Origin: Symbiodinium sp. CCMP2592
Taxonomy: Eukaryota > Sar > Dinophyceae > Suessiales > Symbiodiniaceae
Direction of reading: 5' to 3'
Assembly: GCA_905221615.1 (NCBI GenBank)
Contig: CAJNDT010000510.1
Coordinates: 61,001-125,000, forward strand
DNA: 64,000 bases
In this document: piece by piece, positions 20,032-44,797 of the stretch
Layout of the letters: each line of letters begins with the position of its first letter
How positions within the stretch are numbered: position 1 is the first letter of the stretch
Notes under the pieces: generated by a model
Databases searched by the model: none
Told to the model about the DNA's origin: nothing
What the model saw: only the letters and a program-made list of their open reading frames with translations
Translations under genes and position numbers: made by a program

Positions 20032-20460
20032 GGCTCGCGTTAGTAATGACGAGCTTCTGTGTTGCTTTAAGACAGCGCCGCGCAGTGCGCGCACAAGGCC
20101 CCAGAGCCTGATGTTACTTGCACTGCTGGCCCCAACCGAGACTGGGGGAAGAACATTGCACATCAAACGCAGTGCGCTGCTCTGCCGCGCAACGCGCAAC
20201 GAAGGGGAGTTGTGGGCAAAGCACATAGCAGGCAGTGACCTGTTCGTGTGGATTGACAATGAAGCGCGTACATCCCTACACAAAGCCTTCACAAGGAAGG
20301 CGGAAGGCGCCGCGATAGTATCGCAGGCAGTCGACATGGAGGAGTCCCTGCAGTGCAGGACTGCTTTCTTCCGCGTGCCCACCGTCAGCAACATTACTGA
20401 TGGCCCCAGCAGAGACTGGTGGGAAGAGACTCAGAAACTTGGCGCAGAGCGCTAATTCCT
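20032..20460 (+). pseudogene. RNase H C-terminal fragment of E1 pol (relic 2)
   Basis: A frame open to TAA at 20453-20455 contains GELWAKHIAGSDLFVWIDNE (WIDNE at about 20249-20263), then AFTRKAEGAAIVSQAVDMEE, FFRVPTVSNITDGPSRDWWE and a short tail. WIDNEpAR...RVPs.sN.aDgPSR is the end of a DIRS/Ngaro-type RNase H; E3 shows the same WIDNE and RVPS signature. It lies just before repeat B1, where the 3' end of an E1 pol would be expected. The upstream RT is not recognisable, so this is a remnant. Confidence 0.65.
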
Positions 20461-24769: not shown

Positions 24770-24947
24770 CCTGCCTGGCCGATGCCCTTGTTTTCCGGCG
24801 GACCCTCAACCGAAGCCTGCGCTGAGCTGCACATGTAACAACTGCCATCTTTCTTAGAGGACAGCGCGATTTTGAGCTCGTGGGGCCATCCAGCTTGAAA
24901 ACTCGCGGCTTGCCAAGCTAATCAAACTGACATGTTGCCTGTCGAGC

Positions 24948-27206
24948 ATGGGCTGCACTTTCTTGCCAAGGAAGGCTGTGCCTGCTGCCTGCGAGTTTTT
25001 GGTTCAAGCCGTTGACTCAGGTTCTGCTTTTGCCATGGCTTCTCCTGCAGCTGATTCCTGTGAACTAGGGGGTTCTCCGGCACACGAATCCTTGCAGGCT
25101 AACCCTGATGAAGGCGTTCGCCCCGTCGAGGCCGATCAAGCTTCGCCTGACAAGTCTCAGGGAGAGGTCGAGCCGGGCGATCTCGAGTTTCAACAACATC
25201 TTGAGGACTTGCTGTCGCAGGCTGGCAGTGTCGCTAGAGACCCGCTTGATCCACCTGCTGCTGACGAAGACACCTTCCTTGGTGTGAGTGGCTGGAGTGA
25301 TCTTGGATCGGCGGCCGAGGAGGCGTGGTACGGCGATGTGCGCCGGCTGGGAAGTGATGAAGCTGAGGCTTCTGTATGGTCGGTTGTCGAGCGTGGGTCC
25401 GAAGCTCCGAAACTCCTGGCGTCGCCAATGGACGACAGGGATGTGCAAAGGGTCGCGGCGGAGCTTGAGAGGAAGCAGGCTGCCGAGACAGTGCCAAAAC
25501 AAGCCTGGGAGCTCCCAGGCAGATTGAGCTACGCTTGGGAAGTTAAGAGACCTTGGAGGCTGATTGGCATCCCCGAGGTTGCTGCCTCGCTGGACCCCGA
25601 GCCGGCATTGGAGACGGAGCTCAAGCTGAAGCTGAACCCAATGGTTCGAAAATACTTGGAACGGATGCCTGTGCAGAGGTCCGAAGAAGAGGCTAGATCG
25701 CATGCGCTAAAGAACTTGAAATTTATGATCCTCTTCGATGTCGAGGCCACTCAGCTGGGGATGAGCCTCGCAGGCTTGGTTGGTCGTGCAGCTGAGGAGG
25801 ACGAGATCAAAAGTTCTTTCGTAGCGGCTTTCCGCTTGAAGGCCACCAGCACCCTCAGCAAGAGAACTTCGGCACTCATGAAGTTTTTCAGGTGGGCACT
25901 GAACGGTTTCTTGCACTCGCCGCTCTCTTTCAATGAACAGCACCTTTTCGACTACATGAAGGTCTTCCAAAACGGCCAGGGGGGCCCCACTTCGGCCTCC
26001 CATTTCCTGGAAGCTCTTCGCTTTTTGCATGGGGTGGCTGTTTTGAGGCACGTCGCCCTCGACGATTGCATCAGTGCAAGGGTCAAGGGCTTGGCGGCAG
26101 ACCTGTACTTGACAAAGGCCCCACTGAATCAACGGGACGAGCTCACTCTTAAGATGGTCGTGGCACTTGAGACGGCTATCGACCTGGAGGGCGACCGCGA
26201 CGCTTGTATCATGGGGCAACACTTATTCTGCCTTCACTCGGGGGCGCGGTGGACGGATTCGCAAAGGCTGAAGTCCATCGCCGTGCAAACCTCCCATGGC
26301 GAGACCTTTGTGATTGCGGAAGGGCTCACCTCGAAGACTTCGAAAACTCAGGAGGCCAAAACCCGGCTGCTGCCCTATGCTGCGATTGGGTCGGGTGTGA
26401 AGCTGCCGTGGGCAAACCGTTGGCTTGAGGCGCGCCAAAACCAAGGATTGAAGCTCGAGGCCTTCACCCTGCCGGGTTGGTCGGAAACTTCCGGAAAATG
26501 GACCTCCCTGCCGATGTTGGCGGGAGAGGCTACCTCGTGGTTGCAGGATTTCCTTTTGAGGGCTGGGTTCGAAGAGGAAGAAGTGCTGAAGCGCGGCTCT
26601 CACTCGCTGAAGGCGACTCTTACTACTTGGACATCCCGGTGCCCAACGGTCTCTTTCTCCTCTAGCGACCAGAGGTTGGTGGGACATCACGTCAAGCCCA
26701 AAGACAAGTCTCCCTTGATCTACTCTAGGCAGGCGTACACCGCCCTGTACGGCAAGATCCTCGCGATGTTCATTGACATTCGTGAGGGTCGCTATGATCC
26801 GGATTTGCCGGAAGTTGATAGAGTCCTTGCTGCAGCCGCTGAAAACTCGCATAAAAGGCCAACTGAGCCTAAGGCAAACACGATCCCTCCCGCAATCGGG
26901 CCCCTCGAAGAGGCTAGCGGGGAGGAGGGTGGCTCGACTTCCGAAGGGAGCGAGGAAGCACTCTCGGGGGAAGACCGAGCCGACGTGGCGAGAGCACCAT
27001 TTCAGCAGCCGGTGGACTTGGAACTTGTTTATGTGCACCGAGTGTCAGGCGTTGTGCACTGCCTGAAGGACCCTCGAAGCACGGATTTCTTTTGTGGTCG
27101 TTTCTTGACCGCAGCGTACATGAAATTCGGAAGGGCCGGCGCGGCAGCAGCAGATCCAGATTGCTGCATTCAGTGCCGGAGGGCGCGCGACCGGGAGCCG
27201 GTTTGA
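24948..27206 (+). CDS. E3 tyrosine recombinase (DIRS-type YR)
   Basis: A 752-codon ORF from ATG 24948. The first 220 or so residues are acidic and disordered. A SAM-like N-terminal binding domain lies at about 240-400 (TLSKRTSALMKFFRWAL, HFLEALRFLHGVAVL). Catalytic domain: Arg434 in CLHSGARWTDSQRL; His552 and Lys555 in SHSLKATLTTW (Lys at the position usually Arg); GHH at 579-581; Tyr592 in LIYSRQAYTALYGK. A serine/glutamate linker follows, then a Cys-containing tail (DLELVYVHRVSGVVHCL ... CCIQCRRAR) that also appears, out of frame, in E2. Expected role: integration of circular element DNA. The ORF is intact; the start is the first ATG giving a continuous protein. Confidence 0.85.
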   Translation: MGCTFLPRKAVPAACEFLVQAVDSGSAFAMASPAADSCELGGSPAHESLQANPDEGVRPVEADQASPDKSQGEVEPGDLEFQQHLEDLLSQAGSVARDPLDPPAADEDTFLGVSGWSDLGSAAEEAWYGDVRRLGSDEAEASVWSVVERGSEAPKLLASPMDDRDVQRVAAELERKQAAETVPKQAWELPGRLSYAWEVKRPWRLIGIPEVAASLDPEPALETELKLKLNPMVRKYLERMPVQRSEEEARSHALKNLKFMILFDVEATQLGMSLAGLVGRAAEEDEIKSSFVAAFRLKATSTLSKRTSALMKFFRWALNGFLHSPLSFNEQHLFDYMKVFQNGQGGPTSASHFLEALRFLHGVAVLRHVALDDCISARVKGLAADLYLTKAPLNQRDELTLKMVVALETAIDLEGDRDACIMGQHLFCLHSGARWTDSQRLKSIAVQTSHGETFVIAEGLTSKTSKTQEAKTRLLPYAAIGSGVKLPWANRWLEARQNQGLKLEAFTLPGWSETSGKWTSLPMLAGEATSWLQDFLLRAGFEEEEVLKRGSHSLKATLTTWTSRCPTVSFSSSDQRLVGHHVKPKDKSPLIYSRQAYTALYGKILAMFIDIREGRYDPDLPEVDRVLAAAAENSHKRPTEPKANTIPPAIGPLEEASGEEGGSTSEGSEEALSGEDRADVARAPFQQPVDLELVYVHRVSGVVHCLKDPRSTDFFCGRFLTAAYMKFGRAGAAAADPDCCIQCRRARDREPV

Positions 27207-27384
27207 GGCGAGCTTTCGACTACCAGGGGAGATCTGGGCCTCGGCCCATCCTCGGCACCTTTGCCTGCATGCAGCATAGGCAGAACATGGTGTGTCGTCC
27301 TACGGAGTTGGCAGCCTGCAGATTTCGACTGTTTGTTTGTGTGAGGCGCTTGACTCAAGTCACTTAGCGCTAGAGGGTGCGAGC

Positions 27385-28573
27385 ATGGCCGGAGTGATGC
27401 TGGACTCGGAAGCTGCCTTTAAAGAACGTGCCTTGAAGGTGGGACTCTCTGCTGCAAACCACGCCACTTTGGAAGCGCAGGGGTACAGCACATTTGGCGC
27501 CTTGGCTTTCGCAGTTTCAGCCTCACCCAACAGCGTCAGTGAGGAAGAGGTCAAAGAATGGATTTGTGCAGTCTTCACGCCGGCACCCGCGCATCACCAG
27601 GTTTCCTGCCTGCGACGCTTGCTCTTCGAGGCCCAGGCCCTCTCAATCAGTGATATGAAGAACCGTGTGGAGCCCTCGAACGATTTCGTCACGAGGAAGA
27701 TGCCAGTAGCCGAGCGCCTTGCCAGGCAAAAGGCGCAAGAATCCCGGCTTACCGGGATACACTTTTCACCGGAAACCACACCATCCCATGGCGTGGTAGA
27801 TCGACTTGTGGAGATGCTCGAAACCGGAACGCTTGTATACCTTCCTCCCGGTAAGTATCTCTCAAGGGCTCAGGAAATTCAGTCGGCCAAAGCAGACAAG
27901 GCTTTGTCGATTGATTCGGATGGCAACCTTAAGGTCACTTCAAAGCTTGACAAGTTCGAACATTGTGACACGGGGTCCGAGTGGACCCTTCGCCAGGCTT
28001 GGGCGCGAAGGAGCCTTGCCTTGGATCTTTCTGGCCTTGCGACATATCTGGCTATGGAGGCTTGGGTGCACAAGCTCTTCGTGACGCTTGAGAGGCCTTC
28101 CCCTCCTGGTTACCACGGAGTGGCGCTGACTCAAATCGTGGCACACTTTGGCCGCTTCCAACCTGCTGGGAGCCCTTGCCGCCGCCCCTGGCCGCGTCAA
28201 ACCGCTTGATGAACAGCTTAAGCTCCTGAGCGACCACAGTGATGTCTTGCAGTTTCTCAACCACCTGCCTGCCCAGAGTTCGCCGTCAAATCCTCTGAAG
28301 CGCTCCGAGAAAGGTGACACCCCCAAAGGCCGAGGCAAAGGCAAAGGCAAGAAAGGCAAGGATCGTGGCGCTTCGGGTTCCATTACCGTGCCTGACGGGG
28401 CGGTCACTAAGGTGAATGACAAACCTGTGTGCTTCGCTTTCAACTGCGGCTCCTGCAAGTTCAAGGTGTCCAAGAAAGGTAGGTGCGGGCGAGGCTTTCA
28501 CCTGTGCTGGTGGAAAGGCTGTGGAGGTGCCCACCCGGGGCACGAATGCACGAAGGCTCGCGCCAATCAGTGA
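27385..28573 (+). CDS. E3 gag-like protein, one frameshift near 28147
   Basis: Starts at ATG 27385 (MAGVMLDSEAAFKERALKVG). Helical throughout; the first 45 residues resemble the SAM-like start of the E2 gag. Near 28147 the frame changes: one frame ends at TGA 28207-28209, the other continues LAASNLLGALAAAPGRVKPL to TGA 28571-28573. An extra T in 'cactttggcc' would explain it (mutation, error or programmed shift). The C-terminus has a Lys/Gly run (KGRGKGKGKKGKD) and a Cys/His cluster CFAFNCGSCKF ... CGRGFHLCWWKGCGGAHPGHEC, zinc-finger-like. The joined length of about 396 codons is close to the E2 protein. Confidence 0.65.
28571..28573 (+). promoter_or_regulatory. In-frame TGA between gag and pol of E3, candidate readthrough stop
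   Basis: Context atcag-TGA-AAACCCGCAG; the same frame is open on both sides. Compare E2 9464-9466 (TGA-AAACCGCAG). Confidence 0.55.
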
Positions 28574-30493
28574 AAACCCGCAGGGACCGCGACGCACCCT
28601 GTGGAATCCCAGTCGTCGCAGTGCCAGGCAAACGTGCTTGCAGAGCCTAGGGGCCCTCCTTTGCACCCTGCCGAAATGTTTGCAACCTCGCTTTTGGAAC
28701 TACCTTCGGCCAGCCGTGTAGACTTGCTGAAGCTTTTTGACCTTCTCCCTCACGAGGATGCGCCTACTGCCGGGCGTGCAGAAGCTGGAGGTTTTTCTAT
28801 CGGCACCGGCACCTGGGTGCATGGGAACCTTGTGGGATTGCGAAACAACTGCCGAGTTTTCCCTTTGAGCACTAAAGTTTTCACTCGTTTTGTGTTGCAG
28901 GAGTGCCCCAGCCACTCCTTTTCTGCCATAGTTGTCCTTGACAGCGTTTGCACTGTTGCGCACCGTGACACTCACAACTTGGAGTCGGCTCGCAATGCTG
29001 TTTTCGGGCTTTCCGATTACTCAGGAGGTGAAGTCTGGGTCCAGAATGCTCAGGGCCACACGCCTATGGAGGTCGATGGCCAGACGTTGCTTGGTGATGC
29101 TTTGCCAACGCTCCCTGGCCCGGCCGTCTTTTCGGCCCGGTGCGTTTTGCATGCAACTTTGCCTTGGGTAGGCAGTCGAGTTGTGTTAGTTGCATACACA
29201 ACGAACTTCACTGACAAGTTGGCGGTCTCAGATGCCTCATTTGCAGCACGCTTGGGCTTCAACGCGTGCCACCGTTCAGCCGGCGGGCCGACCCGGCAAC
29301 CCTTTGCAGCGGAGGTCTTCAGCGGCACAGCCGTTTTGTCTCGGGCCCTCTTCGCAGCTGGCTTTGCCACTCTCGCCGTTGATCACCGGCCTCGTGCAGC
29401 TCTCATGCCAACAGTGCGATTGGACCTTACTGAGAAGGCCCAACAAGATCTGCTTATGGACCGCCTCCAGGCAACCCCCCCTGATGCTATTCATATAGCT
29501 CCGCCTTGTGGTACCTCCAGCCGCGCCCGAGAGCGCCCCCTTCCAGCCGTGCTGCTTAAACAAGGCGTTCGTGAGCCCAAACCCTTGCGCTCCGCGCGCC
29601 ACCCCTTGGGACTTCCAGGCCTTGACAAAGCGTCCTCCCAGTACCGCCGTGTGGAGCAAGCAAACCTTCTGTACCTCTTCACTTTCAACTTGGTCTGCTG
29701 GGCGCTTGAGAATAGTGTGCCTTTCACGCTCGAGAATCCCGCTAACAGCCACTTCTGGGCGGCTTTTGCCGCGCTGGCTCGCGCCCGTCCTAAGGCCTCC
29801 TGGCATCGCTTTAGCCACAGAACCTTTCAGGTGGAGTTTGATCATTGCATGTACGGTGGTGCCCGGCCGAAAACCACGCGATTGCTCACCAATTGCAAGC
29901 ACATGGCCGACTTGCGTGCCCGTTGCGACCGCTCTCATGATCACGCCCCTTGGGGCGCTCAGCGGGGTCCCCATGGGTGGGCCTTGGCCACGCACCTCGA
30001 GGCTGCATATCCCGTCCAGCTTGCTGAAGCCCTGGCTGCTCGCTTCGCCACCCATGCTGAGACCTCTGGCCTCTCTCTTTGCCCACGCCCGCTGGACGTT
30101 CATCATGCTGCTTACGCGGCCCAAGGTTTGCAGCATCGCAAGAGCCAGCCTCTCCTGTCCGAGTTTGCTGCGATCCGACATGTGCCCAAGTCGGCCGTCG
30201 ATGAGTCATGCATGAGGGTTCTCACGGCCCCGATGATTGGGGTGAAAACGGGGGACCTTGCGAAACCCTCCGATCATGTGCCTTCGTGCGACTTCGAGAA
30301 CTCCGAGCCCTCGACTAATAACCCGGCTCCCTCGCCTGCCCCTTCGGGTTTAGTCCCTAACCCCTCGTGTGAGCCCCTGCGGCACGCAGGAAACGAGCCT
30401 GGTGCGGGGTCAGGGCTGGTTACAGTTGGGGTCTATCGTAGTCCCGAAGTGTGGGTAACCGCATCCCTTGGACTCGAGCAACCCTTTGCATGA
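28574..30493 (+). CDS. E3 fusion of 2OG-Fe(II) oxygenase-like and C5 DNA methyltransferase-like domains
   Basis: About 640 codons in the gag frame after the TGA. Residues are numbered from codon 28601; an alternative ATG lies at 28676. Residues of about 60-205 show a jelly-roll oxygenase signature: His121-x-Asp123 in VAHRDTHN, then GGEVWV, then His184 and Arg193 in LHATLPWVGSR, the HxD...H...R set that binds iron and 2-oxoglutarate. Residues of about 235-470 show C5-methyltransferase motifs: VFSGTAVLSRALFAAGF (motif I, from Phe240), DHR, APPCGTSS with catalytic-type Cys303 (motif IV), and LENP at 377-380 (ENV-like motif VI), then FDHCMYGGARPKTTRLLTN. The C-terminus is Pro/Ser-rich. It would modify DNA, perhaps methylating and oxidising bases; enzyme activity is inference. 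The target-recognition part is short, so other methyltransferase families remain possible. Confidence 0.68.
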   Translation, partial: KPAGTATHPVESQSSQCQANVLAEPRGPPLHPAEMFATSLLELPSASRVDLLKLFDLLPHEDAPTAGRAEAGGFSIGTGTWVHGNLVGLRNNCRVFPLSTKVFTRFVLQECPSHSFSAIVVLDSVCTVAHRDTHNLESARNAVFGLSDYSGGEVWVQNAQGHTPMEVDGQTLLGDALPTLPGPAVFSARCVLHATLPWVGSRVVLVAYTTNFTDKLAVSDASFAARLGFNACHRSAGGPTRQPFAAEVFSGTAVLSRALFAAGFATLAVDHRPRAALMPTVRLDLTEKAQQDLLMDRLQATPPDAIHIAPPCGTSSRARERPLPAVLLKQGVREPKPLRSARHPLGLPGLDKASSQYRRVEQANLLYLFTFNLVCWALENSVPFTLENPANSHFWAAFAALARARPKASWHRFSHRTFQVEFDHCMYGGARPKTTRLLTNCKHMADLRARCDRSHDHAPWGAQRGPHGWALATHLEAAYPVQLAEALAARFATHAETSGLSLCPRPLDVHHAAYAAQGLQHRKSQPLLSEFAAIRHVPKSAVDESCMRVLTAPMIGVKTGDLAKPSDHVPSCDFENSEPSTNNPAPSPAPSGLVPNPSCEPLRHAGNEPGAGSGLVTVGVYRSPEVWVTASLGLEQPFA

Positions 30494-30503
30494 AGCCACC
30501 CTG

Positions 30504-33500
30504 ATGGCCATCAAGGAAAATCTTACTTCGGAGGCTAAAGTGCTTAAGCTGAAGCAAAAGATTGCCCTGACTAAAATGGAGATCCGGGCCAAGCAACTTG
30601 AATCTCAGGAGAGGGCACTGCATCAGTCAAAGCCACCTTGGATGCAAAAAGTCCTTCGGGGAAAACGCATTCTGTTGCTGCGCGATCTGTTGTTGCAGCA
30701 CGGCTTTGATGACATGGGGGTCGTGGACCTCGTGAGTGACGGCTCACATCTGGTGGGGTCTGCTCCTAAGCCCGATTGTTTTGAGACCCGCGTTAGGATG
30801 GCAAAGCTCTCTCCCGAGGCCCTAAGGGCTGCAGCCCCGGATTTGAGGAAAGCCATCCTTGCGAACCCCCGGAGAGTCTCTGGAGACGAGGCGGCCGAAC
30901 TGCGGAGGGTCACCGACGAAGAGACGGCCGAAGGTTTCCTCACGGGACCGTTCGAGTCTGAGGAAGCGGTGTCCAGCCACCTCGGGACCCAGGATTGGGT
31001 GGCTGTGAGGAGATTCCTCATTCAACAGTCCGACAAGAACCGTCCCATTGATGACGGCCACGAGGCCCACCTCAACGATGCTTATGGGACGGCCATCCGC
31101 TTGAGGCTCCAGGATAGTGCGTACTTTACGGCCATGGCCCTGGCTGTTGCAAGGATGCAAAAGGACTTGGGCGTGTGTGTTCCTTGGAAGGTCAAATGCC
31201 TAGACTTGTCAAAGGCTTACAAACAATTTTGTGTAAGCGAGCGGGATAGGTGCCTTTCGGTTATAGTCATTTTCGACGAAAAAGGAAAGCCAACCTGGTA
31301 TGTGGCGAACGCCTTAATGTTTGGTGCCGCTGCCAGCGTTTTTAGCTTTAACCGTATAAGTCGTGCCATACACTTCTTGTTCACCAGAGTCTTGAACGTG
31401 GTGTGCTCGTACTTCTATGATGACTACCCGATGTTGGCCCGCACTGACATGGCACAGGCAACTGATGAGGCGTGCGGCCGCATGCTGACTCTACTTGGCA
31501 TCCGATATGCCGAGACAGGGACCGGATCCAAAGGTTTGCCCTTCGATGAATCTTGCAACGTGCTGGGACTCAAAATGTCCGTGGAACATCTTCACTTGGG
31601 GAAGCTCTCGATTTCCAACAAACCAGGCAGAATTGAGCGGCTTGTGGAGTTGTTCGGCAAGGTCAAAGCCGAGGGGTCGATGACAAAGCATTTTGGCCAG
31701 GTACTGCTTGGACTCTTGCGTTTTGCTGCAGGCTCCTGTGTGGGCATGTCGCTAAATCACATTTGCGCTGACTTGAACAGGATAGTCCATGCTGAAGCTT
31801 TTCCATCTCCCGAGGAGTTCGCGAAGCTTTGTGAACGGGCTTTGGAGTTTCTTGGCAGTGCTCGACCCAGGGAGGTGAAGGTGTCTGATCGGAAGGAGGT
31901 CGTTCACATCTTCACGGATGAATCTCTCGAAGGCGATTTCGCAGGCATAGGGGCCGTGATGATTGATTCGGCCGACGGCTTCACGCGTGTGTTGCAAGGC
32001 GAGCTCCCGCCTGAGCTCCGCAGCGCATGGCGGAACGAGGCCAGCGAGCACTTGATCTGCCAGGTCGAGTTGTACGCGATATTCTGTGCAAAACTTGTCT
32101 TCAGAGAACGGCTGGAGGGCAGGAGAGTTGTCTATTGGATAGACAACGAACCTGCACGCCTGGCCCTTGTGAAGGGCGTGAGCAAATCTTGCATTATGGA
32201 TCGCATGCTTCGCGAGCTGTGTCGACTTGAAGACAACATGGTCTCCTACGCGTGGTACACTCGGGTACCGTCGAAGTTTAAGCCCCGCTTGGGTATAGCT
32301 CAGGGTTGTCCCTTAAGTCCCACCCTAGCTGCCGCATTCAGCCACCTTTGGACCTTGGCTGTTTTGAGGCAAGGGGTTTCAGGCCTGGTCTATTTGGACG
32401 ACCGTTCCTTCTGGACTTTTTCTGCGGATCTTGGCGACCTGGAGCATGCGATTCAGCGCTCCAACCGATTCGATGCCACTTGCGGTCTAGAAATATCCTT
32501 GCCAAAGTGTGCGATCGTGGCGCCAGAGGGTCACGTTGAGGCTCCTGCTCTGGCTGCCCGATTAAACTATCAGTATTCGCAAACCCTTGAAGTATTAGGT
32601 GTCACTGTTTCCTTTAATGATGAATGGGGCTTGCTGAAATTTTCCTTGAGAAAAGCTTTGCTGCGCATGGACCTTTTGCGCTGGGTGACCACTTGCAGTC
32701 GACTGCGGGCCCTCATGTTGAAATCGCTTGTTTACCCGTGTTTGGTGTGGGCCGCTGCCTACGCTACGCCACTGGCAGGCGAGATGAAACAAGTTAGAGA
32801 TGCTGCGATTCGGGTATTTGACTGTCAATTTTCCTTTGAAGCCCCGCGCGTCCTGATCTTCGAACATGTGGGGTGGATGCTGGAGCCACAGTGTGCTGCT
32901 GACTCTGCTATGCTCCGCGAGGCCTGGCGCCTTCTCTGCAAGCCTCCGGCGTTTGCCCTGGAGCAGCCGCGTGACGTCCGGGGCCAGCGCTGGGATCAGC
33001 TGTTGCCTGCTGCGCCTGGCCTTCTCCGCAGATTGGGGTGGAGCGTCGTTGAACGCCCTGACGGCTTCTTTTTCGCCTGCCGCGATGACTTGGGAATCTC
33101 TCGTGAGGTGCAGGTCGGATGGGAAAGCTTTGCTGAGGTAAAGGGCTGGCTGTTTGACCACTACCGGCACCTTTACATGCAGAGATGCCAGCGTGTCTGG
33201 CGTAGCTTTCATAGGCCGGACCCGAGCCTTGCGCGAGGCCTGGATCTCGAGCCTCCGTTGCGGGATGCGCGCTTCAGCTTTCGTGGGCACCGTGTAGCCA
33301 TGCATGAGGCGACCACTCCTTATATGCGACGGGCCGCTGCTGTCACGGGAGGCTCGTGCTGGTTCTTTACGGCCGGGCAGGGGTTGAACGAGCAGCACCG
33401 GCGCATGCATTGCCGCTACTGCTCCGTCGCGACCGCATGTGACCTGGGTTTGCGAGTGCACCGAGGCCGCCGAGGCGCTCCGACGGGACCATCCCCCGCC

Positions 33501-34208
33501 AACGACGCGAGCGGAGGAGCGCATGTTTGCAAAGTCGACTCCCTTGAAGCCTCCGGCGCCTGCCTCGCGCTCGGCTCGGGCCGGAGCAGGATTTATGCGG
33601 CTACTGATGGCTCCAGCCATCGATCTGTCGGTGCTTATGCGGTGGTGGTCGGCGATCCGTCTTGTGTCTATGCCATGGGCACTGGGGCAGAGGATCAATC
33701 CCCGTATCGGCAAGAAGTTCTGGCCCTCCGCGCGGCCTTTGCTTCGGTCCATCGGGTATGGAGTGAGGGCTGCGAGAAGTGCATCTTTCTCTTGACCGAC
33801 TGCAAAGCTGCCCTGACGGCCATCTCGAGCCATGGTGATGATCCCTTTACTTTGGGTCTCTTGCTGAGGGACGCGCGCCGTCTCTGGAAGGAGCTGGAGA
33901 GGCGCGGCTGTGCTATCTCCTTGATTTGGGTGCCGTCACATAATAAGCACCCCCGCTGGAGGCCCTCGCCGGATCATGATGCGGATGTGCTCCGCGCCTT
34001 TAACCATGCTGCAGATCAGGCGGCGGGCAACTGCATGCAAAACAGACTCTCGGGCTCTCTCAGGGAGCGATGGCATCAGCAGTGTGATCAGGCTCGGGAT
34101 TGGGAGCTGACTACCATCCGGCTTGCGGCAGCTGCTGCCGAGAAGCTGGACAAACATGTGAAGAGCGTTCCTCTTGATGATGCTGAGCCCGAAGGGGCTA
34201 GGCCCTGA
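30504..34208 (+). CDS. Chimeric ORF: E3 reverse transcriptase/RNase H fused to LINE RT-RNase H
   Basis: One open frame with ATG at 30504 (MAIKENLTSEAK; the upstream frame is open from 30468, overlapping the methyltransferase stop). 30504-32279: DIRS-type RT with motif A VKCLDLSKAYKQF, motif B NALMFGAAASVFSF, motif C SYFYDDYPML, then RNase H with VVHIFTDES, QVELYAIF, YWIDNEPARLAL, ending at RVPSKF. From about 32280 it is LINE ORF2: KPRLGIAQGCPLSPTL (motif B), VYLDDRSFW (motif C), thumb, and LINE RNase H (YAATDGSS, LTDCKAAL, VPSHNKHPRW) to TGA 34206-34208. LINE motif A is absent, so only the DIRS RT is complete. The join shares GTTTA between both parents. About 33410-33580 runs in a shifted frame relative to other copies and then returns. 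Probably not functional as a fusion. Confidence 0.8.
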   Translation: MAIKENLTSEAKVLKLKQKIALTKMEIRAKQLESQERALHQSKPPWMQKVLRGKRILLLRDLLLQHGFDDMGVVDLVSDGSHLVGSAPKPDCFETRVRMAKLSPEALRAAAPDLRKAILANPRRVSGDEAAELRRVTDEETAEGFLTGPFESEEAVSSHLGTQDWVAVRRFLIQQSDKNRPIDDGHEAHLNDAYGTAIRLRLQDSAYFTAMALAVARMQKDLGVCVPWKVKCLDLSKAYKQFCVSERDRCLSVIVIFDEKGKPTWYVANALMFGAAASVFSFNRISRAIHFLFTRVLNVVCSYFYDDYPMLARTDMAQATDEACGRMLTLLGIRYAETGTGSKGLPFDESCNVLGLKMSVEHLHLGKLSISNKPGRIERLVELFGKVKAEGSMTKHFGQVLLGLLRFAAGSCVGMSLNHICADLNRIVHAEAFPSPEEFAKLCERALEFLGSARPREVKVSDRKEVVHIFTDESLEGDFAGIGAVMIDSADGFTRVLQGELPPELRSAWRNEASEHLICQVELYAIFCAKLVFRERLEGRRVVYWIDNEPARLALVKGVSKSCIMDRMLRELCRLEDNMVSYAWYTRVPSKFKPRLGIAQGCPLSPTLAAAFSHLWTLAVLRQGVSGLVYLDDRSFWTFSADLGDLEHAIQRSNRFDATCGLEISLPKCAIVAPEGHVEAPALAARLNYQYSQTLEVLGVTVSFNDEWGLLKFSLRKALLRMDLLRWVTTCSRLRALMLKSLVYPCLVWAAAYATPLAGEMKQVRDAAIRVFDCQFSFEAPRVLIFEHVGWMLEPQCAADSAMLREAWRLLCKPPAFALEQPRDVRGQRWDQLLPAAPGLLRRLGWSVVERPDGFFFACRDDLGISREVQVGWESFAEVKGWLFDHYRHLYMQRCQRVWRSFHRPDPSLARGLDLEPPLRDARFSFRGHRVAMHEATTPYMRRAAAVTGGSCWFFTAGQGLNEQHRRMHCRYCSVATACDLGLRVHRGRRGAPTGPSPANDASGGAHVCKVDSLEASGACLALGSGRSRIYAATDGSSHRSVGAYAVVVGDPSCVYAMGTGAEDQSPYRQEVLALRAAFASVHRVWSEGCEKCIFLLTDCKAALTAISSHGDDPFTLGLLLRDARRLWKELERRGCAISLIWVPSHNKHPRWRPSPDHDADVLRAFNHAADQAAGNCMQNRLSGSLRERWHQQCDQARDWELTTIRLAAAAAEKLDKHVKSVPLDDAEPEGARP

Positions 34209-37122: not shown

Positions 37123-37309
37123 GGTTTAGGTCCTCCCCCATAGGGGTACCCGTGTCTTCTGTTGGGGGCGATGCGCTGCCCCATTGCTGCACTGACCATG
37201 GCTCACTTTCTCCCCTAGGGTTTAGGCCTATGCCCCCTTGGGTACCTGATGTCCAGCCTGCTGCAACAGCTGATCGGGATGATCTTGTGATACCTAATAT
37301 AATCCGGGT

Positions 37310-40300
37310 TTGGAGTTTTTGCCAGGAGGAGGTGGGGTCGCTGACCCAGGGCTCCGGGGGCCTTCCCAATACAGGCCGCCGTCGGCGTGCATATCTGTGG
37401 GTCGAGGGGACCGTGGTCTCGTCGAGCAGTCCCAGGACCGTGCTGAGTGTGGTGCTGAATGCCTTCAACAGGGTTTCCCTTCACCCTTTCGGTTTAGATG
37501 CCCTCCTGTGCTTTTTGGAGTTCCCGAGTGCACTTGCAAGCCCTTGACAGGGAGAGATGCTGTGCCGACATGTGTGGTCTTGCCTCAGAGTGAGCCTGTA
37601 GCTTCTGATGTGTGTGGCCGGGACCCTGCCAGGCTCGTTGCAGTCTCCTCTTGCATGTGTCAGGTTCCACTTGTTGCTGACTTGCAGGGTTCGGATCGGG
37701 TTTTTCTTGATACATCTCATGCTGCCATGGGCCCCTGTCCGAATTGCACCAGCAAAGCTTGTTTCATGCGGGCTGTGGGGAGTCTTTCTGATGGCGCCTG
37801 CGCCCAGGTGCCTGCGACGCGCAGAGCGGGACCGCTGCAAACTCAGAGCGATCTTGACGGTGTGCAACTGCAGGGGCCACTGGGTCAAGACAGGCCGAAA
37901 GGTCCGAGTATATCCCGCGTGGCCCCTGGTAGTTTGATGCCTTGCTGCCTGTGTCACGTGTGCCATGCTGGCATGTATGATCCAAGAAGCCCGCCTGTCT
38001 GTGTGCAGTTGCCGGGGTCAGTGAGTCAAGGTAGGCCGAAAGGTCCGAGTATATCCCATTTGGCCCCGAGCAGCCTGCTTCCAACATGTGTGTGCGAGGT
38101 ATGCTCTGCTGGCTTGATGCACAACTGCAATTGTGGACTGCGACCTGCTGGCGGGCAGCCTCTTCCGAGGGTTTCTGGCCGAGCGCAATTGCAAGGGTCT
38201 TTGGGTTCAGGCCGACCGCAAGGTCCGAGTATATCCCACTTGACCCCTAGCAACCTGATGCCAACCTTTGTGTGTGAGACACAATCTGCGAGTGCACCTG
38301 TCCCTCCGAGGATGGGTGGTAACGTGCAAGTGCAAGGGATCTTGGGTCAGGATACCAGTGACGTGATTGCCTCTGCCTGTGCAAGCACTCTTGTGACAAA
38401 GGACCAGGACTCTGCTGCTGCCTCGCGCTCCTGCCTGCCTGAGGGCTGCTCGGGCCCCACTGGCCTAAGGTTTGGAGGCGGCAACCCGTTTGAGGGCATG
38501 ATGGCCAGCATCACGGAACAGCTTATGCCCATGATCACTGCGCTCATTCAGAAAGCTGTGCAGGAAGCCATTGCAAATGCAATGGGAGGTGCCCCGGCAA
38601 CCCGTCCCCGTGTTGTGCTGCAGGAACCGGACCTGGAGCGAGGGCCCAAACGCCATAAGCCTGACCCTAACCCCAGCAACAAGCGAAAAAACCATGAGTC
38701 GAGCCGCCATCCTTCGTCTCGTGAGCCGGGCGAGGGCAAAGCAGCTGGTGGCAGAGGTGGTCAGCCTGGTGCTGCAAAGGGCTCGGCCAAGGGTGCTGCT
38801 AAAGGCAGTGCAGAGGCGTCCCCACCCAAGTCTGGACCTAAGGGCAAAGGGCAGGGCGACCGGCCTCCTCGTGATGCTGAGGGCTGGACCAAGGTTCAGC
38901 GTGCTCCCCCGCAGGGCCCCTTCCAGCTCCGAAGGCAGGATTGGAGCGCGCAGTTGTTGTCGCAGGATGGCATTGCCAAAGCATTGGACGAACTTAAACC
39001 GGGTTCTACTCTGGAAGCTGTCATTCTTGTCGAGCCCTCGGCGCTGCCGAGAATTCGCACCATGCTTGCAGGCACCAGCAAATCCCATAAAATCACCCTT
39101 GTAACCTTGGACGCAAATGGTCCTCACAAGGTCCCGGGATGTGTGGGAGATCTCCTCCGTTTTCGACGAGCCTCGATTGCACATTGCAAATCTGACCCTG
39201 CTGATGGTGGTGTCCCTTGCTTTGCGGGGCACAAGGCCAAGGCCGTTAAAGTTGTTCCTGCGTCCACTTCGGTCGTCTACTTTAAGGTGCCTGAGATGTA
39301 CATGACGCCTGATAAATTCAAGCATTGGAAGAACAACCCGAGTCGTGCTGCTTCTTCTTGGGCAAGCTCTCACCAAATCACTTTGAGTGACACGTGGGGT
39401 TGGGTCGAGGAGCAGCAGGCTGGCAAGCAAGGACTGCAGTTGTTTGGCATTGCTCGCCTCCTGGACTCCGAGTTGTCTTCTCTCGTTGCTGTCAGTGGCC
39501 GGGATGGAGTTTTTGTTGATGTGCCGCGCGGCAAGCTTGTCTCCACTGTGCAGTGGCTTGCTGTTACCAAGGGGGAAGCTCCGACTGCGTACCTTGAACG
39601 CGGCCTCCGCATGAGTGCTCCTTATGGCCTTGCCACCCAGGGCGGACGCATTGGCGCCAGATCGCCTAGGGATCCCTCACAGGCTGTCCCGCGTGTTTGG
39701 AATTTCCCTCATGTGCCGGCTAGCTGGGGACAGAAGGAAGTGCTGCAGGTGCTGGACCAATCCTTCAAGGATGTGGCTTTGATTCAGCATAAGCGCACTG
39801 GCGCTGAGTACTTGTATCGCTTCAGAGCTACGCTTAAACACGGCGATCTTGATCTGGTTCCTTTGAGTGCTATCGTCGAGAGCGAGCCGGGGAAGGACAA
39901 TGAAATCACGCTGTGGGCCACGGTTGCACCCTACAAGCCTAAGCAAGCTAAGCAGCGACCTCTGCGATGTGCGCCGACTCCCTGTCTTGCCAAGGAGAAG
40001 CCTGCATTGGAGCCCCAATCCGTTAAAATTCAGGTCCCCGCTGAACTCGATGATGACGGTAAGAAGGTGTCCCCTGCCAAACATGTTGCGGCTTCGCATC
40101 GGCAAATCCCCTCGGGGTGTGATCTCATTGAGACTCCGAAAGACGGAGCCTGTTTGTTTCACGCCATAGCGCGTGGCCTCCACTGGCTTTCGGGCCCTAA
40201 GAAAACCGAGCACTCCCACAGGGACTTGAGGGCGCGCTGTGTCGAGCACTTGCGAAAATATGCCTCGCAATATATAGGGGAATGGGACGGCCACGGGCCG

Positions 40301-41713
40301 GCTTTACAAAAATTGCGCGAAAATGCCGCATCTCCGGAGGACGCCTTTGAGGAATACCTCAAGTTAATTGCTTCGGAATCTGCATACGCCTCTACCATCG
40401 AGCTGAAGGCTCTCGGACGCTTATTTGATTGCCACATCCTTGTGATCCCACGCGATGGGAATTTTAGTGCGATGTCGTTTCATGCGCAGCAGCGCAAAAG
40501 GAGGCTGGTGTTATGGTACACACCTCGGCACATCGAGCTTCTTTTGCCCGCTAAGGATGCTAAAGACTACCCTGAGGAGGTTTTTTCCGTTACGAGTGGT
40601 GCTGTCGTTGACTTGAGGGCTGGAGGGGATGATGCTTCCCAGTGCTCTGGTACTGTTTGGACTGCTTGCGCCCGATCAAACCGATCCAAGGCCAGCCGAT
40701 CATCTTCTGTGAAGGCGGGCACTGTGTGGACTGCCACCAACGCGTCGAGCAGAAAGGCCGCTACTTCTCTTAAGCGCGCTCGCGGTGCTGCTGCGACGGT
40801 CTGGTCCCGAGCCGTCTCTTCTGGTGCTTCCGTGCATTCTCAAATGCCTGCCTTGCCGGAGCGGGACGATGATGATGCCCCGCAACCTGAGCGGTTGCAT
40901 CATGCCAGCCGGGCCCTGCCTCAGTCTGCCCTTGTGATGGCCCGTCGTAATCGCGGCCGTGCCTTCCCTGATGGAGTTGCCAAATGCAGGCTTTGCCCCT
41001 TTCGCCGCAAGTGTGCTGATCCTGTGAAGGCCTATGCGGCCTATCAGCGGCACTTCTTGGATTCGCATCCGGGGGAGAAGCTTGGGCTCGCTCCTGCCCG
41101 CCAGGCTTCCTGTGTTCGTGACCTCGCTGATGGCGAGGAGGCGTACTGGAGATGTAAACGGTGCCAGGCAGGCATCTCGACTGCTGATGCGGCCCGCTTT
41201 GGCAAGGACTCTTTGTGGCGCTTTCGCCGGGAGCATAAAACAAAGGCCCACCCGCGCGTCTCTTGGGCTGTGTGGAACAAGGAAGCGAAATCACACTCGG
41301 CCACCAAATGGGCCTCAAAGATCAGTGTCACTCGCAACAATGCCCAGAAGGCTAAGCTCCTGCCGGTGCTGCGCGAGCTGGAGGCTCAGGACTTTGATGC
41401 CTTCGGGTGGCCGCGCCAGGCCGGGAAGGACACCAATACTGTTGATAAGTATCCCTTGCGCATATGCCCGGCTTGGGTGTGCCGCAAATGCCGAGCGCCG
41501 TGCCCCTCTGCAGAGATCGCTAGGAAACATCGGTCGGTCAAGGGACAGTGCCCTTCTCGCACTGCTAAGGCGAGGGCGTGGATTCGGTTGCGCTCCCTTG
41601 CTGCCAATAAGAAGCTTCATGATGCTGCTCCTGCCTCTGTTCGCAAAGAGCAAGGCGAGCTCGCCTTCGCTGCTGCTGAAGAGGCATTGCGAGCCCCCAT
41701 GTCGTCGGTGTGA
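37310..41713 (+). CDS. LINE copy 1 ORF1, main part: repeats, basic region, OTU-like protease, zinc fingers
   Basis: About 1467 codons, open upstream to about 37310. Order: Cys-rich region with three or four repeats around GRPKGPSIS and CxxC pairs (37860-38340); helical segment FEGMMASITEQLMPMIT; basic Lys/Gly/Ala-rich stretch (38690-38870); a globular region of unknown fold (38930-39990); OTU-type cysteine protease signature with DGACLFHAIARGL (Cys codon 40151-40153), ELKALGRLFDCHILVI and RHIELLLP (His codon 40529-40531); then zinc-finger-like clusters CRLCPFRRKC...H...H, CKRCQAG...H...H and CRKCRAPC...H to TGA at 41711-41713. OTU domains cleave ubiquitin-like linkages or polyproteins; its role here is inferred. 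A 75-bp segment present in copies 2 and 3 is missing near 40765. Confidence 0.72.
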   Translation: MEFLPGGGGVADPGLRGPSQYRPPSACISVGRGDRGLVEQSQDRAECGAECLQQGFPSPFRFRCPPVLFGVPECTCKPLTGRDAVPTCVVLPQSEPVASDVCGRDPARLVAVSSCMCQVPLVADLQGSDRVFLDTSHAAMGPCPNCTSKACFMRAVGSLSDGACAQVPATRRAGPLQTQSDLDGVQLQGPLGQDRPKGPSISRVAPGSLMPCCLCHVCHAGMYDPRSPPVCVQLPGSVSQGRPKGPSISHLAPSSLLPTCVCEVCSAGLMHNCNCGLRPAGGQPLPRVSGRAQLQGSLGSGRPQGPSISHLTPSNLMPTFVCETQSASAPVPPRMGGNVQVQGILGQDTSDVIASACASTLVTKDQDSAAASRSCLPEGCSGPTGLRFGGGNPFEGMMASITEQLMPMITALIQKAVQEAIANAMGGAPATRPRVVLQEPDLERGPKRHKPDPNPSNKRKNHESSRHPSSREPGEGKAAGGRGGQPGAAKGSAKGAAKGSAEASPPKSGPKGKGQGDRPPRDAEGWTKVQRAPPQGPFQLRRQDWSAQLLSQDGIAKALDELKPGSTLEAVILVEPSALPRIRTMLAGTSKSHKITLVTLDANGPHKVPGCVGDLLRFRRASIAHCKSDPADGGVPCFAGHKAKAVKVVPASTSVVYFKVPEMYMTPDKFKHWKNNPSRAASSWASSHQITLSDTWGWVEEQQAGKQGLQLFGIARLLDSELSSLVAVSGRDGVFVDVPRGKLVSTVQWLAVTKGEAPTAYLERGLRMSAPYGLATQGGRIGARSPRDPSQAVPRVWNFPHVPASWGQKEVLQVLDQSFKDVALIQHKRTGAEYLYRFRATLKHGDLDLVPLSAIVESEPGKDNEITLWATVAPYKPKQAKQRPLRCAPTPCLAKEKPALEPQSVKIQVPAELDDDGKKVSPAKHVAASHRQIPSGCDLIETPKDGACLFHAIARGLHWLSGPKKTEHSHRDLRARCVEHLRKYASQYIGEWDGHGPALQKLRENAASPEDAFEEYLKLIASESAYASTIELKALGRLFDCHILVIPRDGNFSAMSFHAQQRKRRLVLWYTPRHIELLLPAKDAKDYPEEVFSVTSGAVVDLRAGGDDASQCSGTVWTACARSNRSKASRSSSVKAGTVWTATNASSRKAATSLKRARGAAATVWSRAVSSGASVHSQMPALPERDDDDAPQPERLHHASRALPQSALVMARRNRGRAFPDGVAKCRLCPFRRKCADPVKAYAAYQRHFLDSHPGEKLGLAPARQASCVRDLADGEEAYWRCKRCQAGISTADAARFGKDSLWRFRREHKTKAHPRVSWAVWNKEAKSHSATKWASKISVTRNNAQKAKLLPVLRELEAQDFDAFGWPRQAGKDTNTVDKYPLRICPAWVCRKCRAPCPSAEIARKHRSVKGQCPSRTAKARAWIRLRSLAANKKLHDAAPASVRKEQGELAFAAAEEALRAPMSSV

Positions 41714-44700
41714 TTCGACTTTCGTGCTTGAATGTTCACCGGCGTGGCACGTCGACGGTGGGGCTGCTCGATGCTCTGCTTCGGCAAGGCCCCCCACAGA
41801 TTATGGCGTTGTCCGAGGTCAATGTTCCTGAAACGGCTGGCATCGGCTATCGCAGCCAGTGGAAAGCGCATGGCCGGCATGTTGCTCTGAGCGCTCCTGA
41901 GGATCTCGGCAGCCGGGTTGCTTTGGTCAGCGATTTTCCTTTTCGGCACGTCCAGCTGTGTAAGGGTCCTGCTTCCACCAGGCACGTGGCGGGGCTCTTC
42001 AATTTGCGATCCCTCCCTGAGGATGATTCTTCGCTCCCTGCGAGCTCCCGGAGTGCCACTGATGAAACCATCCTGGTGGTGGCCTTTTATGGCCAGGCCG
42101 GCAACGAGCCAGTTGCCCAGACACAAGTGGATGAGGTTTTGGCGTGTGCGGTTTCCTCGGGTTATAGGTTTGTGGTTTTGGGCGACTACAACCGGGCCTT
42201 CCCAAGGCCGCTTAGGATCGCTAATTTCGCAAGGCACCGTGCTTGCTGGTGATGAATGTGCGCGTGGCCGGCCCCTTCCTGCCACGGGCCCGGTCAATGC
42301 CCAAGGAGTGCGCTCTCGTCGCATTGATTTTGCTGTTAATCATCGGGACTTGCCTGCGGTTTCTGTGGATCACTTTACGTGCGATTTTTCGGACCACTTG
42401 GGGGTACACTACTCGTATGCCCTCGATGCTCCTTGCCCCTTGGTTGGGCCCAAGCGATGTAAGCCTCGTGATGATCTCCAGTCTTCTGACTTGGAGTCCA
42501 GATGTGCCCAAATTGATGCTGGCCCTTTTGCGAGCGCCTTGGAACAGAATGATTTGGACGGGGCTTGGCGCTTCTTGTCGGACACCGCTGAGCTTCTGCT
42601 GTGTGAGCCGTGCTCTGCAGAGTGCGTTCCTCGTGCGTCTTCCTGGGAGCCTGTCGCCCACAGTGCCGCGGGACGGGCTGGCAAGCAGCTTGTGAAGTCG
42701 GAGAGCCTGCGCCTTTTGCTGCGACTCCGTGCGAGGCTTCAGGTTCTTTCCCACCGGACGAACGATGATTTGCTGGTGGCGCGTATCAGGCGCTCACTCC
42801 GGTCCACGCGCTTGAAGGTGCCCAGCCTGCCTTATGCCCGTGATGGCGATGAGCTCTCTCTTCTTCCACATGTTGCACAGCTCATCGAGACTTTCACGCA
42901 GCAGGAGGAGGAGGCAAGAAAGCAAATGTGGCGCACCAGGACGCGTGCTGACCTGCCTCGTGCCCGGTCTTTTGTCAAGCGGCGCGCTGATGAGCAACTT
43001 GCTTGGGAGCGTCAGCTTCCGGATGTTGCCAGTCCGGGCGACCCTGCACATCCGGCGGTCGCGGTTGCAGCTGTGGCGAAGGACCTGCGTGCGAAGCTTT
43101 GTCCCGCGTCCTTTCGGGCGGTTGACATGCAAGCCATGCGTGACCTGTTGCGGCCCTTGCCGCGCCCCGCTAGCTTGGAGGTCGTGCCTAACATCACGCC
43201 GGAGGCTCTCCGACGATCAATGCAGTCCATGCGGCACCGTGCTGCCGGGCCGGATGCGTGGAAACCTGGGCTGCTTTGTTCCATGCCTGATCTTTGGTGG
43301 GTGTGGACCTCCCAGCTGTGGAATCGGTGCATTGCTTGTTGTGACGTCCCCGCCCAGTGGGCGCAGGCACGTGTGGTGATGATTAAGAAAATCAAGGGGG
43401 GCTTCAGGCCGTTAACCGTCTCTCAAGCTGTCTGGCGTGCGGGAGCAAGGATTCTGAATGCCCAACTCTCCGACTGGATAGGTTCTTGGAGGTCTCCGTC
43501 GGATGCCGGTGGCATCCCGGGCACGTCGGTGTCGGGTGCCCTGCTTCAGCTGAATGCTGCAATGCGCGGTGGCGCTAATGTTGCGGTACAACAGGACATT
43601 GCGGGGTTCTTTGATGCCATCCAGTTTGAAGCCCTTGAGGTCCTCCTTTCTCATCTGAAAGCGCCGCCTTTTCTTTGGCCACTGCTGAAGGCCTTTTACA
43701 CGCGAGCTTCGCGCATCGTCCAATTTGATGGTGCATACAGTGATGCCTGGTTTAAGCCCCGCTTGGGTATAGCTCAGGGTTGTCCCTTAAGTCCCACCCT
43801 TGCTGCCGCTTTCAGCCACCTTTGGACCTTGGCTGTGTTGAGGCAAGGGGTTTCAGGCCTGGTCTACTTGGACGACCGTTCCTTCTGGACTTTCTCTGCG
43901 GATCTTGGCGACCTGGAGCATGCGATTCGGCGCTCCGACCGATTCGATGCCACTTGTGGTCTTGAAATATCCCTGCCAAAGTGTGCGATCGTGGCGCCAG
44001 AGGGTCATGTCGAGGCTCCTGCTCTGGCTGCCCGATTAAACTATCAGTTTTCGCAAACTCTTGAAGTTTTAGGTGTCACTGTTTCCTTTAATGATGAATG
44101 GGGCTTGCTGAAATTTTCCTTGAGAAAAGCTTTGCTGCGCATGGACCTTTTGCGCTGGGTGACCGCTTGCAGTCGACTGCGGGCCCTCATGCTGAAATCG
44201 CTTGTTTACCCGTGTTTGGTGTGGGCCGCTGCCTACGCTACGCCGCTGGCAGGCGAGATAAAGCAAGTTAGAGATGCTGCGATTCGAGTTTTTGACTGTC
44301 AATTTTCCTTTGAAGCCCCGCGTGTCCTGATCTTCGAACATGTGGGGTGGATGCTGGAGCCACAGTGTGCTGCTGACTCTGCTGTGCTCCGCGAGGCCTG
44401 GCGCCTCCTCTGCAAGCCTCCGGCCTTTGCTCTGGAGCAGCCGCGTGACGCCCGGGGCCAGCGCTGGGATCAGCTGTTGCCTGCTGCGCCTGGCCTCCTT
44501 CGCAAATTGGGGTGGAGCGTGGTTGAACGCCCTGACGGCTTCTTCTTCGCCTGCCGCGATGACTTAGGGATCTCTCGTGAGGTGCAGGTCGGATGGGAGA
44601 GCTTCGCTGAGGTTAAGGGCTGGCTGTTTGACCACTACCGGCACCTTTACATGCAGAGATGCCAGCGCGTCTGGCGGAGCTTTCATAGGCCGGACCCGAG

Positions 44701-44797
44701 CCTTGCACGCGGCCTGGATCTTGCGCCTCCGTTGCGGCGCGCTTCAGCTTTCGTGGGCACCGTGTTGCCATGCATGAGGCGACCACTCCTTATATGA
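41710..44797 (+). pseudogene. LINE copy 1 ORF2: endonuclease and reverse transcriptase, frameshifted
   Basis: Begins at GTG 41710 overlapping the ORF1 stop (GTGA). The APE-like endonuclease is visible: LSCLNVHRRG, IMALSEVNV, VVLGDYN. At about 42193 two bases are missing relative to copy 2, ending the first frame at 42252; the second frame then continues RRIDFAVNH, FSDHLGVHYS and RT motifs AVQQDIAGFFDAIQFE (A), GIAQGCPLSPTL (B) and VYLDDRSFW (C). Near 44735 four bases (gatg) are missing relative to copy 2 and the frame ends at 44797. Confidence 0.82.

Follow-up and report, generated by a model that had tools for sequence, protein, structure and literature searches.

The 64,000-nucleotide stretch of DNA analyzed here (the window) lies on contig CAJNDT010000510.1 (positions 61,001 to 125,000) of the dinoflagellate Symbiodinium sp. 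CCMP2592, and it holds a damaged copy of a retrotransposon. From homologues and related copies, the element can be read as, in order, a tyrosine-recombinase-like open reading frame (ORF), a gag-like ORF, an oxygenase, a methyltransferase, a reverse transcriptase (RT), and an RNase H. Computation shows that the oxygenase and methyltransferase form the start of Pol in this tyrosine-recombinase-type (DIRS/Ngaro-like, split direct repeat) retrotransposon, with RT and RNase H following. It is highly probable that the two leading domains are, respectively, a TET/JBP-like 2-oxoglutarate (2OG)-Fe(II) oxygenase and a C5 methyltransferase (C5-MTase)-like enzyme; an algal mobile element appears, in other words, to carry a DNA methyltransferase and an enzyme of the DNA-methyl-oxidizing type in one predicted protein. 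The features of the window copy are as follows.

24876..27206 (+), tyrosine-recombinase-like ORF, homologous to a related copy over 25032-27203
27379..28570 (+), gag-like ORF with a Cys/His finger at its end; in the window copy its frame breaks between 28143 and 28145
28571..28573 (+), in-frame TGA between gag and pol, shared by all 38 loci read
28670..29257 (+), TET/JBP-like 2OG-Fe(II) oxygenase domain, residues 33-228, from profile, AlphaFold, and Foldseek
28961..28978 (+), HRDTHN, with His130 and Asp132 as predicted Fe ligands and Asn135 at the position of TET2 Asn1387
29150..29179 (+), from His193, predicted to bind Fe, to Arg202, predicted to bind 2OG
29279..30073 (+), divergent C5 cytosine methyltransferase domain, residues 236-500, fold-based
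29501..29509 (+), PPC of motif IV with Cys312, the Cys being present in 53/53 aligned rows
29729..29740 (+), LENP, motif VI-like, with E, N, and P each in at least 90% of the 53 rows
30459..32276 (+), RT/RNase H portion of pol, which falls in a different frame in the window copy, with a LINE-like fragment cutting in near 32276-32306

The window copy is broken by the gag frameshift at 28143-28145, by a pol frameshift within about 30459-30502, and by the end at the LINE-like fragment, and no terminal repeats were found around it in the window. Related copies are better preserved. Loci L037 and L038, which are 99.9% identical over 8943 bp and occupy different sites, possess split direct repeats arranged A-coding-B-A-B with no evident target duplication, and L035, 82% identical to the window protein, has the same repeat arrangement. 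An R...HxLK...GHH...Y pattern was seen by eye in three recombinase-like ORFs, for which Pfam returned only Phage_int_SAM_1, below its cut-off (E 0.2; 0.42). The RT was matched by RVT_1 in L037 (4.6e-5, 23.6 bits; cut-off 29.6) and in 23 of 51 relatives at E ≤ 0.1, and the profile matches Ty3 RT. Diverged tandem repeats (~81-84% identical) were also observed at 4212-4553 of L037, between the recombinase ORF and gag, in one group.

The frame at 28574-30493 (+) runs for 639 codons without a stop in the ORF list of the window. An earlier note, made by a model from the letters alone, had read this frame as retrotransposon pol joining an oxygenase to a C5 methyltransferase; it does sit in pol, and every motif that was named is present. 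The residue numbers given (121/123, 184, 193, and 303) were each 9 too low, however: counted from the frame's first codon, the oxygenase motifs are His130/Asp132, GGEVWV, His193, and Arg202, and those on the methyltransferase side are FSGT at 249, PPC at 310-312, and LENP at 386. The spacing of about 45 residues claimed between the oxygenase Arg and motif I was measured as 47 (Arg202 to 249). A motif-only argument for the oxygenase was dropped, since the loose HxD...H...R pattern is common by chance, occurring in 406 of 5000 shuffled versions of the domain and 13 of the 88 stop-to-stop frames of at least 150 residues in the window. The motif alone being weak, homologues, folds, and selection were used to make the case.

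The AlphaFold model of the oxygenase half (pLDDT 93.7) is a predicted jelly-roll 2OG oxygenase fold, and a Foldseek search with it gave human TET2 as the top PDB match and a phage JBP1/TET protein as the top match among viral models. Across the aligned oxygenase domains, HxD was found in 14/14, the second His in 13/14, and the Arg in 14/14, the second His being absent from one decayed relative (P0084); set A6 leaves out P0088 (whose frame breaks after LHAT), P0082, and P0016. The iron triad and Arg are kept in 30 of the 30 genomic copies read, and the metal and 2OG residues persist, over the extent of the stretches compared, across families that share only 33-37% identity. The D+3 residue is Asn, the TET2 state. 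PF12851.14 is annotated in the protein database for P0081, P0082, P0085, and P0089. Other searches were less productive: a PDB sequence search with the window protein alone gave nothing meaningful, NCBIfam gave zero matches for the window protein and stray matches for relatives, and a search with the oxygenase region alone returned P0002 as its sole match, the oxygenase-profile search doing better. The outcomes that the earlier note had named as fatal to its oxygenase, namely a prediction lacking a jelly-roll core, homologues lacking HxD/H/R, or an N-terminal half that was really gag or protease, were not what was seen; the predicted fold is a jelly roll, homologues keep the residues with P0084 alone lacking the second His, and gag is a separate upstream frame.

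The methyltransferase half was likewise modeled with confidence (pLDDT 95.4) as a C5-MTase Rossmann fold, and C5 methyltransferases made up 50/50 of the Foldseek matches listed, bearing out the assignment first made from motifs. Beside the invariant motif IV Cys312, the motif VI Glu387 is found in at least 90% of the 53 rows, and the exact string PPCGT[AS]SRARE is absent from 2 of 29 genomic copies. PF00145 matched neither the window protein at E ≤ 1 nor the 51 relatives at E ≤ 0.1, and motif VI reads ENP in place of ENV; the domain is therefore called a divergent C5-MTase. As separate observations, the methyltransferase likeness of P0081, P0082, and P0083 ends just after PPCGTASR in all three, with differing tails, which may reflect either faulty gene models or a genuine splice or break, and one methyltransferase-bearing relative, P0057, carries DUF4326 (PF14216, best match 3.5e-16).

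The fold matches also bear on the substrate, as DNMT2 and AlkB homologues are among them. Together with the AlkB-type 2OG oxygenase of orchid Ty3/Gypsy elements, which demethylates N6-methyladenosine (m6A) RNA in vitro (PMC9289625), they lend something to the idea that it is the element's RNA, not its DNA, that is methylated and oxidized. The oxygenase's best matches are nonetheless DNA-acting TET/JBP proteins, and we consider a pair directed at RNA to be decidedly improbable.

Searches of the genome (1.098 Gb, with all counts of places being lower bounds) showed that the window copy is one of many. Probe P0001 gave at least 70 matches, 65 of which span the oxygenase catalytic region, and probes P0001 and P0007 together identified at least 122 distinct places encoding that span (the P0007 probe gave 95 rows, of which 78 on the oxygenase side were counted and 17 on the methyltransferase side were left out). 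Among the best 29 non-window matches, all 29 lack a stop inside the match, and pol frames reach at least 1283 residues in 17 and are shorter in 12. Further element groups in the genome are only 33-37% identical to the query's group, and P0002, a relative from Symbiodinium necroappetens, has 63% identity over 82%.

Selection was gauged by the Nei-Gojobori ratio of nonsynonymous to synonymous change (dN/dS) in pairs that compare three subfamilies within the query's group with one another; the pairs share history and are not independent. In five pairs with dS > 0.3, the oxygenase gave 0.11-0.13, the methyltransferase 0.05-0.08, and the tail that follows 0.26-0.43; in a set of six pairs, three of them shared with the first set, the respective values were 0.11-0.14, 0.05-0.07, and 0.25-0.40. 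The RT gave 0.05-0.09 in the four pairs without an RT stop, and 0.24 and 0.31 in two pairs containing L005 or L006, whose RT is interrupted by a stop. The methyltransferase reached 0.26 in the L003/L004 pair, and the L011/L017 pair held too few changes for the ratio. These low values mean that both domains are being kept intact; constraint on the methyltransferase is similar to that on RT, and constraint on the oxygenase is a little looser. Computation thus shows purifying selection on both across a set of elements that comprises several families and many copies. Given how readily the bare HxD/H/R pattern arises by chance, the N-terminal half could conceivably be a non-catalytic relic or a chance likeness that just binds nucleic acid or has an oxygenase-like fold. 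This is very improbable indeed, as the metal and 2OG residues are conserved between the diverged families and the oxygenase ratios stay at 0.11-0.14; it is residue conservation, predicted fold, and purifying selection that lift the oxygenase call above chance.

The history of the oxygenase module was followed on a methyltransferase tree of 79 domains (80 rows, one dropped as shorter than 150 residues). The module is present in 13 and absent from 41 of the 54 scorable rows, 25 being unscorable; three of the 13 (P0004, P0006, and P0013) were labeled by eye, P0004 on the ground that the contig of P0084 has the same length (48044), and P0006 and P0013 because their frames seem to start inside the last oxygenase strand. 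A single origin of the module on this tree was rejected (p-AU 4e-8), with at least 5 changes needed, or 7 when only the 10 rows scored by hidden Markov model were used. In the query's clade the oxygenase occurs in 7/7, counting the three by-eye labels, while the oxygenase tree itself is poorly resolved (1/10 branches starred). One relative, P0011, has its oxygenase (residues 437-628) after the methyltransferase and not before it, an order that is presumably domain shuffling within Pol. Of the frames with a full oxygenase profile in the first set, the methyltransferase is also present in 10/10. The module has thus been shuffled, gained, or lost repeatedly, yet stays with the methyltransferase, in a sample collected mainly by way of the methyltransferase. 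No donor was found among bacterial, archaeal, and viral contigs, where 0/195 and 0/56 pattern matches were relatives.

How the two domains might be expressed is suggested by the gag-pol junction. At 38 of the 38 loci read (L001-L030, L037, L038, L042, L043, and L045-L048), which cover five element groups, pol is immediately preceded by an in-frame TGA, and the gag frame runs up to this TGA in four long stretches; in L044 the TGA is present and the frame is broken. The first pol ATG of L036 lies at residue 278, past the oxygenase. The in-frame UGA looks like programmed readthrough, and Gag-Pol would be made by reading through it after gag, a route that would deliver both enzymes, along with RT, to the reverse-transcription complex. 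There, the methyltransferase would convert cytosines of the new complementary DNA (cDNA) to 5-methylcytosine (5mC), and the oxygenase would then take 5mC to 5-hydroxymethylcytosine or further, a two-step writer-oxidizer scheme of the kind known from phage methyltransferase-plus-TET pairs. The oxidized product may shield the cDNA, or it may mark a new insertion, keeping it from being taken for plain 5mC and silenced. We put about an even chance on this predicted activity of writing and then oxidizing 5mC on the element's cDNA; the reading is preferred because of the oxygenase's tie to the methyltransferase, its TET2-type Asn, and its place in Pol.

The most interesting rival is a JBP-like thymine hydroxylase, whereby the oxygenase would make 5-hydroxymethyluracil (hmU) in element DNA, allowing the cDNA to mimic the hmU-rich host chromosome, with the methyltransferase acting independently. 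Dinoflagellate DNA contains 12-68% hmU where assayed, with repeats enriched for it (PMC11071213), and the Pfam model that is matched, Tet_JBP, spans JBP besides TET. Such an enzyme would not need the methyltransferase that accompanies all ten full-profile frames, the Asn at D+3 matches TET2, and the highest hmU enrichment reported in the source is in DNA elements (Mavericks), not in the present ones (PMC11071213); thymine hydroxylation is accordingly a serious but unlikely explanation. Another possibility, proposed for the TET/JBP-bearing DNA transposons of fungi (PMC12730594), is that the oxygenase strips host 5mC from integrated copies to counter silencing, leaving the methyltransferase a separate role. 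A writer fused beside an eraser makes pure erasure odd, and a place in Pol points to a role while reverse transcription is under way and not on copies in the genome, which renders this demethylase distinctly unlikely.

Several points weigh against the writing and oxidizing of 5mC on cDNA. The TET fold match ties with that of a bacterial 2OG oxygenase (Z 11.3), with AlkB near (10.4), and the TET2 alignment score is negative at the second His. Tet_JBP scores for the window protein and its best relatives were 20-29.6 bits, below the curated cut-off of 34.9, which is why the domain is named TET/JBP-like. The Asn at D+3 could face thymine too. Short relatives P0084, P0085, P0088, and P0089 have the oxygenase with the methyltransferase missing or broken, and the link between the two domains is biased by a sample that was found mostly by its likeness to the methyltransferase. 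CpG depletion gave no signal, observed/expected values being 0.73-0.81 in the elements versus 0.75 in the rest of the window. Finally, an ATG at residue 35, where the oxygenase starts, in both L035 and the window copy makes internal initiation possible.

Elsewhere in the window, a LINE-type RT peptide is common to 32276-34208 and 41891-44797 (by eye), and the former piece is a 5′-truncated fragment cutting into the retrotransposon. The long frame ahead of the second LINE RT, at 37298-41713 (DGACLFHAIARGL...), resembles an OTU cysteine protease domain by eye. An RNase H end remnant of a related element lies at 20210-20437 (31% identity to P0002 residues 1014-1090), and no spliced-leader relic was found in the window.

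To our knowledge, the enzyme behind dinoflagellate hydroxymethyluracil has not been identified, and the present proteins offer a candidate family for it. A Tet_JBP profile search of the genome gave 4 matches, all copies of the present element; the same search missed most element copies and is therefore too weak to exclude a host enzyme. It is conceivable, if a long shot, that the retrotransposon TET/JBP-like enzymes at these 122 or more places are a source of oxidized pyrimidines in dinoflagellate chromosomes (hmU, oxidized 5mC, or both), in which case phage-style hypermodification by a eukaryotic retroelement would shape the chemistry of host DNA. If active, the pair would allow an RNA-based parasite to place base marks on its own DNA and to edit them afterwards. 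The proteins also provide concrete material for asking what purpose retrotransposon methyltransferases serve, and a one-chain writer-oxidizer could serve as a DNA chemistry tool.

Methyltransferase-bearing retrotransposons and TET/JBP-bearing DNA transposons are already known, and both enzymes within one retrotransposon Pol were not found in the literature searched. Full-text searches, with few subscription papers, no preprints, and Repbase outside their scope, returned no report of a retrotransposon-borne TET/JBP, and a 2025 fungal study states, in the passages available, that no TET/JBP gene was carried by any retrotransposon (PMC12730594). The closest relatives in kind are the SymbioDIRS-Dnmt3 elements, dinoflagellate retrotransposons with a Dnmt3 methyltransferase in Pol (de Mendoza et al. 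2018, PMC5890265). Like the present element, they are tyrosine-recombinase retrotransposons with A-coding-B-A-B repeats, a C5 methyltransferase inside Pol with RT, and a separate ORF for the recombinase (recombinase-like in the present element). Their methyltransferase is a Dnmt3 found with PF00145, whereas the present domain falls below that profile; the available text of that paper is without the words TET and hydroxymethyl, and its unlabeled elements may include the present families (PMC5890265).

Three further systems share the oxygenase side. Orchid Ty3/Gypsy elements have similarly captured a 2OG-Fe(II) oxygenase, but theirs is AlkB-like, demethylates m6A RNA, and is encoded by an extra ORF of a long terminal repeat element, with no methyltransferase partner named in the portions available (PMC9289625). 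The fungal TET/JBP transposons resemble the present element in bearing a mobile dioxygenase, with several families per genome, although the carriers are DNA transposons and Helitrons, and a fused methyltransferase is not named in the passages on them (PMC12730594). Finally, the C5-methyltransferase and TET/JBP hypermodification genes of phages likewise couple a cytosine writer with an oxidizer. No glycosyltransferase was noticed in the present element, although no search was aimed at one. The phage system consists of separate genes accompanied by glycosyltransferases (PMC12730594), whereas the present one is contained in a single retroelement polyprotein.
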